Shown in pieces: positions 1,882-56,219 of a stretch of DNA of 64,000 nucleotides. The notes below the pieces were generated by a model, which ran no database searches, was not told where the DNA came from, and saw nothing but the letters and a program-made list of their open reading frames with translations. This DNA is from Alphaproteobacteria bacterium. GTDB taxonomy: Bacteria; Pseudomonadota; Alphaproteobacteria; Acetobacterales; Acetobacteraceae. Each line of letters begins with the position of its first letter. Positions within the stretch are counted from its first letter, which is position 1. The stretch covers positions 62,001 to 126,000 of the forward strand of contig JAPLOI010000063.1 of assembly GCA_026400815.1 (NCBI GenBank), read 5' to 3'. Made by a program: the position numbers and the translations under genes.

Positions 1882-3060
1882 TCAGGCAGCCAGGACTTCC
1901 AGCGTGTGGAGCGCCATCATGCGTTCCTCATCGGTGTGGATGACGAGGACTGGGGTGGTGCCGTCGGCGGAGATGGTGGGGGCGTTGGAAGCGTTGCGGG
2001 CGGGGTCGAGCGTGATGCAGAGGAAGCCGAGGTTCTCGCAGATGGCGGCGCGCAGGGGGGCGGAGTGTTCGCCGATCCCGGCGGTGAAGACCAGGGCATC
2101 GAGACCGCCGAGGCAGGCGGCCAGGGCGCCGATTTCGCGGCGGACGCGCCAGGCGAAGTGGGAGAGGGCCCGGCTGGCCTGTTCGGTGCCGGCGGCCTCG
2201 ATCTCGCGCACATCCTGGCTGATGCCGGACATGCCATTGAGGCCGCTGCCGCTGTAGAGCAGGCGGGTGACCTCGGCGAGGGACATGCCCATGGTGCCGA
2301 GCAGGTGCAGGATCACGCCGGGGTCGATGCTGCCGGTGCGGGTGCCCATCGGCACGCCATCGAGCGCGGTGAAGCCCATGGTGGTGGCGATGCTGCGGCC
2401 GGCCTGCATGGCGCAGAGCGAGGCGCCGTTGCCGAGATGGGCGGCGATGACGCGGCCGGCAGCGAGGTCCGGGTGCTGGGCGGCCAGGGTGCGGGCGATG
2501 AATTCGTAGGACAGGCCGTGGAAGCCGTAGCGGCGGATGCCTTGCTCGTAGAACTGCGGCGGCAGGGCGAAGGTTTCGGCTTCCCAGGGCTGGGTGCGGT
2601 GGAAGGCGGTGTCGAAGCAGGCGATGTGGGGGACATCGGGGAAATGCGCCATCGCGGCGTCGATGCCGGCCAGGTTGTGCGGCTGGTGCAGCGGGGCGAG
2701 GGGGATGAGGGATTGGAGGTCGGCGAGGAGTTCGGTGTCGATCTGGGCGGGGGCAGCGTGGTGGGGGCCGCCATGGACCACGCGGTGGCCGACGGCGATG
2801 ACGCGGGCGGATTCCAGGCTGCGCTCCAGCAGGCCGATCACGGCGGCGACGGCGGCGGCGTGGGTGGTGGGTTCCGGCAGGGTTTCGGTGGCGAGCTTGG
2901 TGCCGGTGGCGTCGTGCGCAGAGAAGCGGGCGCGGGCGCCAATGCCTTCGACCTGGCCGGCGATGCGTTCCTGCGGGATGGCGGAGTCGAGCGTGTAGGC
3001 GGCGAATTTGAGCGAGGAGGAGCCGGCGTTGAGGACCAGGAGGGCGGCGCGGGCCGGCAT
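1882..3060 (-). CDS. ackA: Acetate kinase
   Basis: A 392-residue protein of normal length. The N-terminus LLVLNAGSSSLKF is the acetokinase phosphate-binding signature, and the second family signature region (FHGLSYEFIA, HLGNGASLCA, GIGEHS) is present. It interconverts acetate + ATP and acetyl phosphate + ADP, or the propionate equivalent. Its start overlaps the stop of the upstream DsbA-like gene (TGATG), so the two are probably translated together. No phosphotransacetylase gene (pta), its usual partner, lies next to it in this window. Strong call. Confidence 0.95.
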   Translation of the reverse strand: MPARAALLVLNAGSSSLKFAAYTLDSAIPQERIAGQVEGIGARARFSAHDATGTKLATETLPEPTTHAAAVAAVIGLLERSLESARVIAVGHRVVHGGPHHAAPAQIDTELLADLQSLIPLAPLHQPHNLAGIDAAMAHFPDVPHIACFDTAFHRTQPWEAETFALPPQFYEQGIRRYGFHGLSYEFIARTLAAQHPDLAAGRVIAAHLGNGASLCAMQAGRSIATTMGFTALDGVPMGTRTGSIDPGVILHLLGTMGMSLAEVTRLLYSGSGLNGMSGISQDVREIEAAGTEQASRALSHFAWRVRREIGALAACLGGLDALVFTAGIGEHSAPLRAAICENLGFLCITLDPARNASNAPTISADGTTPVLVIHTDEERMMALHTLEVLAA

Positions 3061-53358: not shown

Positions 53359-54198
53359 CTACTCCTTCTTCTCCCGATAATCCCCGAACGCCTTGTCCCG
53401 CAGGCTCAACGTCTCGCGCACAGAAGTCCCGTCGCGCTTGAAGTTGGCGCGGTAATCCAGGCTCACCTTGGTGGTGAAGGCCAGCGCCTGCAGCTCCGTC
53501 CCGGCCCGGATCGCCGCCCGCAGCCCCATCGCCTCCATCGCCCGGTGCACGCTGCGCTTGTTGATCTGGTTCAGCTCGGTGGGGATCAGCGCCACGCGCG
53601 CGGCGATCTTCATCACCTCTTCCTCCAGCACTGCGGCCGGAAACGCCCGGTTGGCGAACCCCTTCTGCGCCGCCTCGATGCCGCTGATGCCATCGCCGGT
53701 CAGCATCATCTCCATCGCGCTGCGCATCCCCATCAGCCACGGATGGAACTGGTTGTCAGGCGGGGACATCAGGCGCACGGCGGGGTAGCCGATATTGGCA
53801 TCCTCGGCGACGTAGACCAGGTCGCAGCAACTGGCCAACTCACTGCCGCCGGCCAGGCAGTGGCCATGCACCTGTGCGATCACCGGCTTGGCGAGATCCC
53901 AGATCTTCATCCAGCCTTCCACCACATGCCGCGCCCACTGCCCAGCACCGGCGGCGGTGTAGTAGGGCTGGTCCACGGCATTGTTGGCCGAAAGGTCATA
54001 CCCGGCGCTGAAGCTGGGCCCGTCCCCGCGCAGGATGGAGACCTTCACCTCCGGGTCCCGATCCGCCTCGATCAGCGCTTCCAGGATGGCGCCGCGCAAC
54101 GGATTGTTCAGCGCATTGCGCTTCTCGGCCCGGTTCATCGTGAGGCGACGAATACCGGGGGCCGGCGTGTCGATCAGCAGCACGGGCTTGTCGGACAT
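53359..54198 (-). CDS. Enoyl-CoA hydratase/isomerase family protein
   Basis: 279 residues from ATG 54198, with AAGGGG upstream. Crotonase motifs: RRLTMNRAEKRNALNNPLRG at the N-terminus, the oxyanion-hole segments GPSFSAGYDLS and VHGHCLAGGSELASCCDLV, and IGYPAVRLMSPPDNQFHPWL. The Glu pair of classical enoyl hydratases is not clearly conserved (RLMSPPDN replaces the usual E-containing loop), so it may be another crotonase-type enzyme. It sits beside a peroxiredoxin-like gene on the same strand, 60 bases downstream of it. Confidence 0.86.
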   Translation of the reverse strand: MSDKPVLLIDTPAPGIRRLTMNRAEKRNALNNPLRGAILEALIEADRDPEVKVSILRGDGPSFSAGYDLSANNAVDQPYYTAAGAGQWARHVVEGWMKIWDLAKPVIAQVHGHCLAGGSELASCCDLVYVAEDANIGYPAVRLMSPPDNQFHPWLMGMRSAMEMMLTGDGISGIEAAQKGFANRAFPAAVLEEEVMKIAARVALIPTELNQINKRSVHRAMEAMGLRAAIRAGTELQALAFTTKVSLDYRANFKRDGTSVRETLSLRDKAFGDYREKKE

Positions 54199-54258
54199 GG
54201 TGTGTTTCCCCTTGGTTTTGCGGCCATGTTCCGCGCAAACCAAGGGGCACACAAGCGC

Positions 54259-54927
54259 TCAGACGATGGCGCGCAGCGTCTCCACCGTCACGTCCGGCTC
54301 CGGCCGAACCGTGTAGTCGGGGTCGTCGAACACATCCCGCACCAGCCCGGCGCGATCGACGATCCAGCGCGACGGCACGGGCAGCTTCCAGGCCCCGTCG
54401 CCGTTCACCTTCGGCAGGTCGATGCCGAACTTGGCGTAGATCGCCGCCAGATCGTCCGGCACCGTCATGGCGATGCCAAGCTGCGCGGCATAGGCGTTGC
54501 CGGCATCATGCAGCAGCGGGAAATCCAGCTTCTGCTTGGCCTTCACGTCCGTGAGATACTCGGGCAGCTGGGGGCAGATCACCACCAGCTCGGCGCCGAG
54601 GTCGCGGATCGTGGCAAGCACCGCATTCAAAGCATACAGCTCTGATCTGCAGTACGGTCACCACGCGCCGCGGAAGAAGCTCACCACCAGCGGGCCCTGG
54701 GCGAGCAGCGCCGCCGAGGTCACCACGGCACCATTGGTGTCGGGCAACGCGAAGCCGGGCAGGGGGCTGCCGAGGGCCGGCATGCCGGTGCGATAGCCGC
54801 TGGCGCGCTGGTCCGCCGTCACGCGATGCATCACCGCGGCCGCTTCGGGGGGAATGCGGCCGGGCTTGGCCCCGTCCCCGAAGGCGGCGAGGCGCATCGC
54901 CGCGAGTTGTTCCGTAAGGCTGGCCAT
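54259..54927 (-). CDS. Peroxiredoxin-like (AhpC/TSA fold) selenoprotein candidate, Sec at residue 90
   Basis: 222 residues if the in-frame TGA at 54658-54660 is read as selenocysteine. Upstream: ATG 54927 with AGGAG nine bases before it, then GMPALGSPLPGFALPDTNGA and VVSFFRGAW. Downstream, in the same frame: PYCRSELYALNAVL, GAELVVICPQLPEY, FPLLHDAGNAYA, PSRWIVDRAGLVRDVF. Family members read FFRGxWCPYC, so the TGA falls exactly on the peroxidatic Cys, giving UPYC. No frameshift or other damage is visible, and both halves use GC-ending codons. A stem-loop follows the TGA (54628-54644). It should be a thiol/selenol peroxidase. The alternative is a Cys-to-stop pseudogene; sel genes are not in this window. 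Confidence 0.8.
54628..54644 (-). promoter_or_regulatory. Candidate bacterial SECIS stem-loop
   Basis: Read on the minus strand, 13 bases after the TGA: CAGAGC-TGTAT-GCTTTG forms six pairs (one G-U) with a five-base loop carrying G at its second position. Bacterial SECIS elements are short stem-loops just downstream of the UGA with a G in the first two loop bases. The codons here (AGA, TCA, TAT, GCT, TTG, AAT) break the genome's GC-ending habit, as expected if RNA structure constrains them. Confidence 0.6.
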
Positions 54928-54979
54928 CCCGGCACTCCTGCGTTGTGGATTTTGGGCAGACTCGCCACCCAGGCCGGCG

Positions 54980-55867
54980 TTACGCGCGGGCTGCGCGCTG
55001 GCCGCCCAGCACGGCCACCGCGAGGCCCGCAACGACCAGCGCCAGGCCAATGGCGAGCCAAAGCGTGAAGGGCTCGCCCAGCAGCGCCACGCCCAGCAGC
55101 ACGGCGGTGGGCGGGCTCAGCGAAAGGAACAGCGTGGCATGGCTGGCCGAGGCATGGCGCAGTGCCGTCAGCCACAGCATGTAGCCCACGCCGCTGGACA
55201 TGCCGATGAACACCAGCGCCGCCCAGCCGGTGGCGCCAAGGGCGGGCAGGGTGGCAATCATCCCCTCCGCCAGCGCCGGCGGCAGCATCGCCACCACGGT
55301 GGCCGCCATGGCCAGCCCGCCGACCGCCAGTGTGCCGTGCCGGGGCACGTAAGGGCGGGTCAGCACAGTGGCCAACGCACCGACCGTGGCGGCGGCCAGC
55401 ACGGCCAGCACCCCCGGCCATTCCCGCGCCGAAACGCCGGCCAGCACCGCATCGCCGAAGGTGGCGGCCACGCCGAGGAAGGCGAGCAGCGCACCCAGGC
55501 ATTTCGCGGCGGTCAGTTTCTCCCGCCCCAGCACGGCGGCGATCAGCATCGTCATCAGCGGAAAGGTGTTGAACAGCACGGAGGCGCGCACCGCGGGCAG
55601 GAACGCCAGGCCCACGTTCAGCAGCGCGATCTGCACACCGAACTGCAGCACGCCCAACCCGGCCAGCGCCCAGAAATCCCGAACGCCAAAACGCGGCCGC
55701 TTCATGCGCAGCAGCCAGGGCGAGATCAGCAGCACGGCCACCACATAGCGCACGAAGGTCAGCGTCGCCGGCCCGGCCTCATGCACCACATAGCGGCTGG
55801 CCACCATGGCCGCACCCACCTGCACGCCGGTCGCCGCGGCCGCCGCCAACGCCCATCGCTGTCTCAC
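54980..55867 (-). CDS. EamA/DMT-superfamily transporter (2)
   Basis: 295 residues from GTG 55867, with GGGAAG six bases upstream; the frame is open much further but only through a gene remnant and hairpin repeat. About ten hydrophobic helices in two EamA halves (FVRYVVAVLLISPWLL; SVLFNTFPLMTMLIAAVLGREK; SPPTAVLLGVALLGEPFTLW). An inner-membrane exporter or permease of unknown substrate. It lies 52 bases upstream of the selenoprotein candidate on the same strand. Confidence 0.86.
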   Translation of the reverse strand: MRQRWALAAAAATGVQVGAAMVASRYVVHEAGPATLTFVRYVVAVLLISPWLLRMKRPRFGVRDFWALAGLGVLQFGVQIALLNVGLAFLPAVRASVLFNTFPLMTMLIAAVLGREKLTAAKCLGALLAFLGVAATFGDAVLAGVSAREWPGVLAVLAAATVGALATVLTRPYVPRHGTLAVGGLAMAATVVAMLPPALAEGMIATLPALGATGWAALVFIGMSSGVGYMLWLTALRHASASHATLFLSLSPPTAVLLGVALLGEPFTLWLAIGLALVVAGLAVAVLGGQRAARA

Positions 55868-55973
55868 GCCATCTTCCCGTCGCACCCCGTGGCCCCTCGC
55901 CGCCTGCCACACTGGCAACGGCCGCACCGCATCCCACCTGTAGCGCAGCCCAAGCCGTTGCGAAGCCCCATCC

Positions 55974-56062
55974 ATGAACTGGCTGCCGCCCGTCTCCCCC
56001 GAAGCCGATGGCGCCGTGGACCTGATGATCGAGCCCAGATCGAAAGACCTCGGCGGCTTCTC
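55974..56062 (+). pseudogene. 5' remnant of a pirin-family gene
   Basis: From ATG 55974 the plus strand reads MNWLPPVSPEADGAVD, then LMIEPRSKDLGGFSA, which matches the conserved beginning of pirin proteins (IxPRxxDLGGFxVRRxLP). Similarity stops at about 56062 where hairpin repeat copy D begins; the remaining codons to TAA 56142 are repeat sequence. No later pirin motif was found downstream. So the gene was cut off at the repeat, leaving about 30 codons. Confidence 0.6.
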
Positions 56063-56069
56063 CGCAAGC

Positions 56070-56093
56070 GGTTCTTTTTTGAAAAAAAGAACC
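56070..56093 (+). repeat. A/T-rich hairpin repeat, copy D
   Basis: GGTTCTTTTTT / AAAAAAGAACC around a two-base centre (in RNA ten or fewer pairs with a small loop), followed by AAAAAAACTTTT. It is a variant of copies A, B, C and E and forms a head-to-head pair with E, as A does with B. It borders the pirin remnant. Confidence 0.75.
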
Positions 56094-56219
56094 AAAAAAA
56101 CTTTTGTGACTTTGCGCCCGACCTTCCCCGTCATTGCCCGATAAGCGACAAAATCCATCGTGCCGCACCAATTACTTGGGTTTCACTGTTCCCGCGCCAA
56201 AATAATAAAGTCTTTTTTG

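Follow-up and report, generated by a model that had tools for sequence, protein, structure and literature searches.

The minus-strand gene analysed here encodes, with a probability of about 0.96, an AhpC/TSA (peroxiredoxin-like) selenoprotein, with selenocysteine (Sec) inserted at the UGA of codon 90. The gene lies in a stretch of 64,000 nucleotides, hereafter called the window, and its features are collected in the table below. We infer Sec insertion itself, as well as the substrate and the catalytic cycle. Specifically, tRNA-Sec and SelB would decode the UGA under the direction of a hairpin beginning 2 nt downstream of it, and the resulting Sec, within the UPYC motif, would immediately precede a helix of a thioredoxin-type fold. 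Most likely, the Sec would attack a peroxide or a disulfide, after which a selenenylsulfide would form between Sec and Cys93, to be reduced again by cellular thiols.

Features of the predicted selenoprotein gene, in window positions
Feature	Position	Strand	Basis
Predicted selenoprotein CDS of 222 residues with Sec90 and Cys93 (UPYC)	54262..54927	minus	frame, Pfam match, homologue codons
ATG start	54927-54925	minus	read in frame
In-frame TGA, putatively read as selenocysteine, at first Cys of WCPYC	54658..54660	minus	TGA 29/89, TGC/TGT 60/89 homologous genes
Final stop codon TGA	54259..54261	minus	reading frame
AGGAG, likely ribosome-binding site, 7 nt before ATG	54935..54939	minus	read from sequence
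Predicted bacterial SECIS hairpin	54618..54655	minus	-21.8 kcal/mol, z -3.80, codon conservation, covariance model
Apical loop UGUAU of predicted SECIS hairpin	54634-54638	minus	19 nt after TGA

The reading frame and codon 90 in relatives

The frame from the ATG to the final stop was broken by the TGA at codon 90 only. As the initial annotation had anticipated, ordinary ORF calling returned two fragments, namely 54658-55050, which uses a TTG start upstream of the ATG, and 54259-54630; its view that these are one frame of 222 residues split by the TGA, preceded by its own AGGAG site, was borne out. The read-through protein matched Pfam AhpC-TSA (PF00578) over residues 53-198, across the TGA, at 3.9e-21 and 75.7 bits, above the gathering score of 26, so that it belongs to the AhpC/TSA superfamily. 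Furthermore, purifying selection was found on both sides of the TGA, with dN/dS of 0.11-0.23 before and 0.24-0.39 after it (Nei-Gojobori, ten pairs from five copies in the genus), so that both parts of the gene are constrained, the one after the TGA somewhat less strongly. The neighbouring genes, also on the minus strand, are an enoyl-CoA hydratase (ECH_1) at 53359-54252 and an EamA transporter at 54980-56158; neither is a selenium or redox gene.

Codon 90 was then compared among 89 homologous genes from 88 loci. It was TGA in 29 genes, TGC or TGT in 60 and nothing else in any, counts that are not frequencies because the homologues were chosen for their similarity to the Sec form used as query. 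The UGA is thus aligned with the Cys of homologues, as is expected of a bacterial selenoprotein. None of the 29 TGA genes had a further stop codon. Note that the set was kept apart from four weak genus matches of 20-25 bits (L024, L025, L026 and L028), from L029-L032, which contain L020-L023 whole, from the distant matches L033-L043 and from tblastn pieces below 95 bits. The TGA gene was present in 5 of the 9 genomes of the genus. The family sample of 397 genomes had it in at least 13 (own genome counted), and the class sample of 385 in the own genome plus 15 others (E up to 1e-25). In the phylum sample (398 genomes, E up to 1e-30), the TGA forms among the matches listed came from the own genome and the already-known G461 only. 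The TGA is therefore not private to this strain; relatives whose protein identity is as low as about 41% have it as well.

One genome, G691, carries two tandem copies of the gene (L109:1486-2130 and 2399-3043), each of which has the TGA as well as the hairpin core described below. The use of UAG as a Sec codon was considered and rejected: TAG occurred in two Cys-form relatives, at the codon of Tyr85 in L115 and opposite Trp180 in L162 (G429), and since both keep their Cys at position 90, these genes are broken or misread.

Predicted fold, function and known families

For the AlphaFold prediction, Sec was replaced by Cys and an alignment of 39 rows was used, drawn from 27/29 TGA genes and 12/60 Cys genes; the pLDDT was 96.8. 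The first match among solved structures was BcpB of M. tuberculosis (5epf, target TM 0.88), followed by Bcp4 and PrxQ types, and AhpE and ResA were also among the 50 structure matches listed. Across these 39 rows, residues R86, G87, W89, U/C90, P91, Y92, C93 and P185 showed little or no variation, and the UxxC motif was found in all 29 TGA genes. The TGA had been placed on the peroxidatic Cys of the motif FFRGxWCPYC; it does fall on the first Cys of that motif, but the word peroxidatic is unproven, given that the position three residues before, where Thr would be expected, is Gly87 in 29/29 Sec genes and in 59/60 Cys genes. The PxxxTxxC/U active site of peroxiredoxins proper was accordingly absent, and without its threonine "peroxiredoxin-like UxxC oxidoreductase" is a safer name than peroxidase.

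The predicted protein may be either a peroxidase or a disulfide reductase. That the protein is a thiol-disulfide oxidoreductase of glutaredoxin- or ResA-like kind rather than a peroxidase, an alternative that concerns function only and is compatible with a selenoprotein, has in our estimate a slightly less than even chance: UPYC resembles CPYC, the motif of glutaredoxins, the threonine is replaced by Gly as described, and ResA structures are among the matches, whereas the best matches in both sequence and structure are peroxiredoxins of the BcpB/Bcp type.

When the protein was searched against NCBIfam, no family exceeded its cut-off. SelL_rel_redox (NF040769), a model that we take to be related to the Prx-like thiol:disulfide oxidoreductase, scored 22 bits against a curated cut-off of 120. 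With regard to published families, Table 1 of PMC13188914, in the excerpts of that paper, has entries for Prx-like PF00578 (UxxC/UxxU), cd02970 (UxxS), PF08534 (UxxC) and Prx PF00578 (TxxU), none of which names the FRGxWUPYC branch. The Prx-like thiol:disulfide oxidoreductase of that table shares both the Pfam family and, in its UxxC form, the motif with the gene here, as does "Prx-like 1" (pfam00578, UxxC) in the excerpted text of the ocean survey PMC2398784; these entries agree with the statement of the initial annotation that peroxiredoxin-like selenoproteins are known in bacteria. The cd02970 protein, as far as the same excerpts of PMC13188914 describe it, is also of AhpC/TSA-type redox function with Sec at the first active-site position, but its motif is UxxS, in contrast to UxxC in 29/29 genes here. 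The likeness to cd02970 rests on the product name of plasmid relatives, "Peroxiredoxin-like family protein"; of the 30 plasmid relatives listed, 17 are annotated with this name and 9 have no annotation. The Sec peroxiredoxin (PF00578, TxxU) shares superfamily and fold, but the gene here has no Thr three residues before the Sec.

In Alphaproteobacteria, the selenoprotein reported in the available passages of PMC1794560 and PMC8124441 is Sec formate dehydrogenase (FdhA/FdoG), an enzyme unrelated to the gene here, and in the same passages of PMC1794560 the 2006 survey counted one selenoprotein family (FdhA) for this class. Our literature search returned no paper that combines selenocysteine and selenoproteins with Acetobacteraceae and, among the papers listed, no description of the FRGxWUPYC branch, which may be included in "Prx-like 1" of PMC2398784. 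The gene thus very probably encodes a UxxC Prx-like selenoprotein, a known kind, of a branch that we did not find described in the papers searched.

Evidence for selenocysteine decoding

The initial annotation had mentioned a visible SECIS candidate and advised a SECIS search over 54600-54665. The 51 nt from the TGA folded at -21.8 kcal/mol (z -3.80), and 2 of 200 shuffles were as good. The 7-bp upper stem carries a loop of 5 nt, UGUAU, with G second and then U, at 19 nt from the UGA. These values fit the bacterial SECIS model as quoted in excerpts of PMC13188914, namely a loop of 3-9 nt, an upper stem of 4-16 bp, G within the first two loop positions and a distance of 16-37 nt from the UGA, so that a predicted SECIS hairpin directly follows the UGA as in bacterial selenoprotein genes.

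The core of this hairpin was conserved at the level of codons. In the TGA genes, codon 96 was GAG in 29/29, codon 97 CTG in 29/29 and codon 99 GCT in 28/29, whereas the Cys genes were mixed at these codons; the four columns with the highest synonymous-codon identity in the TGA genes were 97, 96, 99 and 95 (scorable columns within 5-219). Mean synonymous identity over codons 91-103 was 0.69 in TGA genes versus 0.43 in Cys genes, and over codons 5-89 it was 0.45 versus 0.44. GCT is a rare Ala codon here: codon 99 is the single GCT among the 34 Ala codons of the predicted selenoprotein gene, and four other window genes together use GCT for 9 of 227.

A covariance model of the hairpin was trained on 16 TGA genes, all from other families. 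It scored the window site at 41.1 bits, with the next best site in the window at 11.1 bits, and ranked 13/13 held-out TGA genes (34.8-58.7 bits) above 60/60 Cys genes (best 30.7 bits); note that the model consists mostly of sequence and that the TGA letters count too, so that Cys genes lose points there. As for pairing, RNAalifold retained 4 apical pairs only, with 0 compensatory changes among them. For a 13-pair hairpin, 77.7% of cells pair across the sequences; pairs with changes on both sides were no more numerous than in shuffles (137 of 500 reach the count), though the count of cells with changes on both sides and the covariation score each exceeded all 500 shuffles. The stem below the apical part was largely unpaired in some sequences, and only the apical pairs were common to nearly all. 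Base-pair covariation in the predicted hairpin thus appears weak.

We also searched the own genome (5.1 Mb, 89 contigs, 97.55% complete) for the Sec machinery, as the initial annotation had proposed. All four components exceeded their cut-offs: tRNA-Sec (selC) at 78 bits, a call that ARAGORN confirmed (anticodon TCA), SelB at 338 bits, SelA at 576 bits and SelD at 293 bits. The genome therefore has the selA, selB, selC and selD set of a Sec-using bacterium. Neither of the findings that the initial annotation had named as refuting, a genome without this machinery or a TGA confined to the strain, was thus observed. These genes are spread over four contigs (C33, C47, C6 and C37), with selD on the contig of the window. 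Here, SelD forms the C-terminal portion of a protein of 702 aa that begins with a Pyr_redox_2 domain at its N-terminal end (L063:1402-3510, C37), resembling the Ndh-SelD fusions mentioned in excerpts of PMC2398784. The selC gene (G000:C33:40141-40232) and the selB gene (G000:C47:68654-70486) are on different contigs, in contrast to the selC nested in selB that the available passages of PMC8124441 describe for some Alphaproteobacteria.

The machinery and the TGA gene occurred together across genomes. Outside the genus, selA exceeded its cut-off in 23/23 of the TGA genomes tested, with a partial match in the case of G010, versus 2/30 genomes (G640 and G747) with only Cys forms among the matches listed (Fisher p 5e-13; 53 genomes searched, the genus and G707, which has a TAG gene, being left out). 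Within the genus, 8/9 genomes had selA over cut-off and 8/9 had a tRNA-Sec match of 75-81 bits. In the ninth, G002 (68% complete), the best tRNA-Sec match was 49.7 bits, a score at which the match in the own genome is a tRNA-Leu. selD over cut-off was likewise found in 8/9 genomes of the genus; it was not found in G007 (88% complete), although G007 has the TGA gene.

Readthrough of the UGA by a near-cognate tRNA or through general leakiness, without selenium, could also account for the conserved downstream half. We regard it as very improbable, given that it leaves unexplained why the codon alternative is always Cys (89 genes), why the hairpin core is frozen and why selA was found in 23/23 versus 2/30 genomes. 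Even less credible is a pseudogene or sequencing error, in which a Cys codon mutated or was misread to TGA and no full protein is made: ordinary ORF calling does yield two fragments, but the same TGA recurs in at least 13 of 397 family-sample and 15 other genomes of 385 in the class sample, all 29 TGA genes are free of extra stops, and selection after the TGA is purifying.

Origin of selenocysteine and retention of the machinery

Returning to the selenoprotein reading, trees were computed with Sec coded as Cys. In the tree of 89 rows, the 29 TGA genes formed one clade (support 100/99) with no Cys gene inside, spanning ten families (f1, f8, f27, f56, f66, f67, f80, f91, f102 and f123). G589 has a second gene (L161:841-890, G589:C1, minus), 35% identical, with TGA at the same codon and the motif FYRGGW-UPYC followed by GAGCTGTATGCT. 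This 30th TGA gene has the same hairpin core and scored 39.7 bits with the hairpin model. When it was added, giving a tree of 90 rows, it fell outside the Sec clade, among Cys genes and on a long branch, and the fewest changes were two. A single Sec origin, which the 89-row tree had suggested, is accordingly less certain. A second switch from Cys to Sec in this gene is possible, and only that, because one clade of all 30 TGA genes was not rejected (p-AU 0.066).

The search of the own genome for formate dehydrogenase TIGR01553 gave no match over cut-off, only a partial match of 109 bits without a stop. In the genus, TIGR01553 over cut-off with a TGA was found in 1/9 genomes, G005. The formate dehydrogenase of G005 (L152, G005:C64:45-3095) has one in-frame TGA, and the peroxiredoxin-like gene had no match in that genome. 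Since no Sec-type formate dehydrogenase was found in the own genome, the selenoprotein gene may be a main user of Sec and a main reason why the machinery is kept. On the other hand, G001 and G006 have tRNA-Sec and selA with neither a TGA copy of the gene nor TIGR01553 over cut-off, so that something else can keep the Sec system too.

Taken together, these observations suggest a wider picture that we offer tentatively and consider rather doubtful as a whole. The FRGxWUPYC proteins would be an undescribed alphaproteobacterial Sec subfamily, with one old Sec clade and no return to Cys in the sample, with perhaps a second change from Cys to Sec reaching the same hairpin core, and, in this genus, where Sec formate dehydrogenase is lacking, as the main or only gene keeping the machinery. 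Such a branch may be widely missed, because ordinary ORF calling splits such genes or makes them look like pseudogenes, and no NCBIfam model reached its cut-off for the gene here. A second, old Sec-using family in Alphaproteobacteria, in a genome where no Sec formate dehydrogenase was found, would bear on why bacteria keep the Sec machinery, and the matched Sec and Cys clades would provide a natural comparison for the benefit of selenium in an enzyme of thioredoxin fold.
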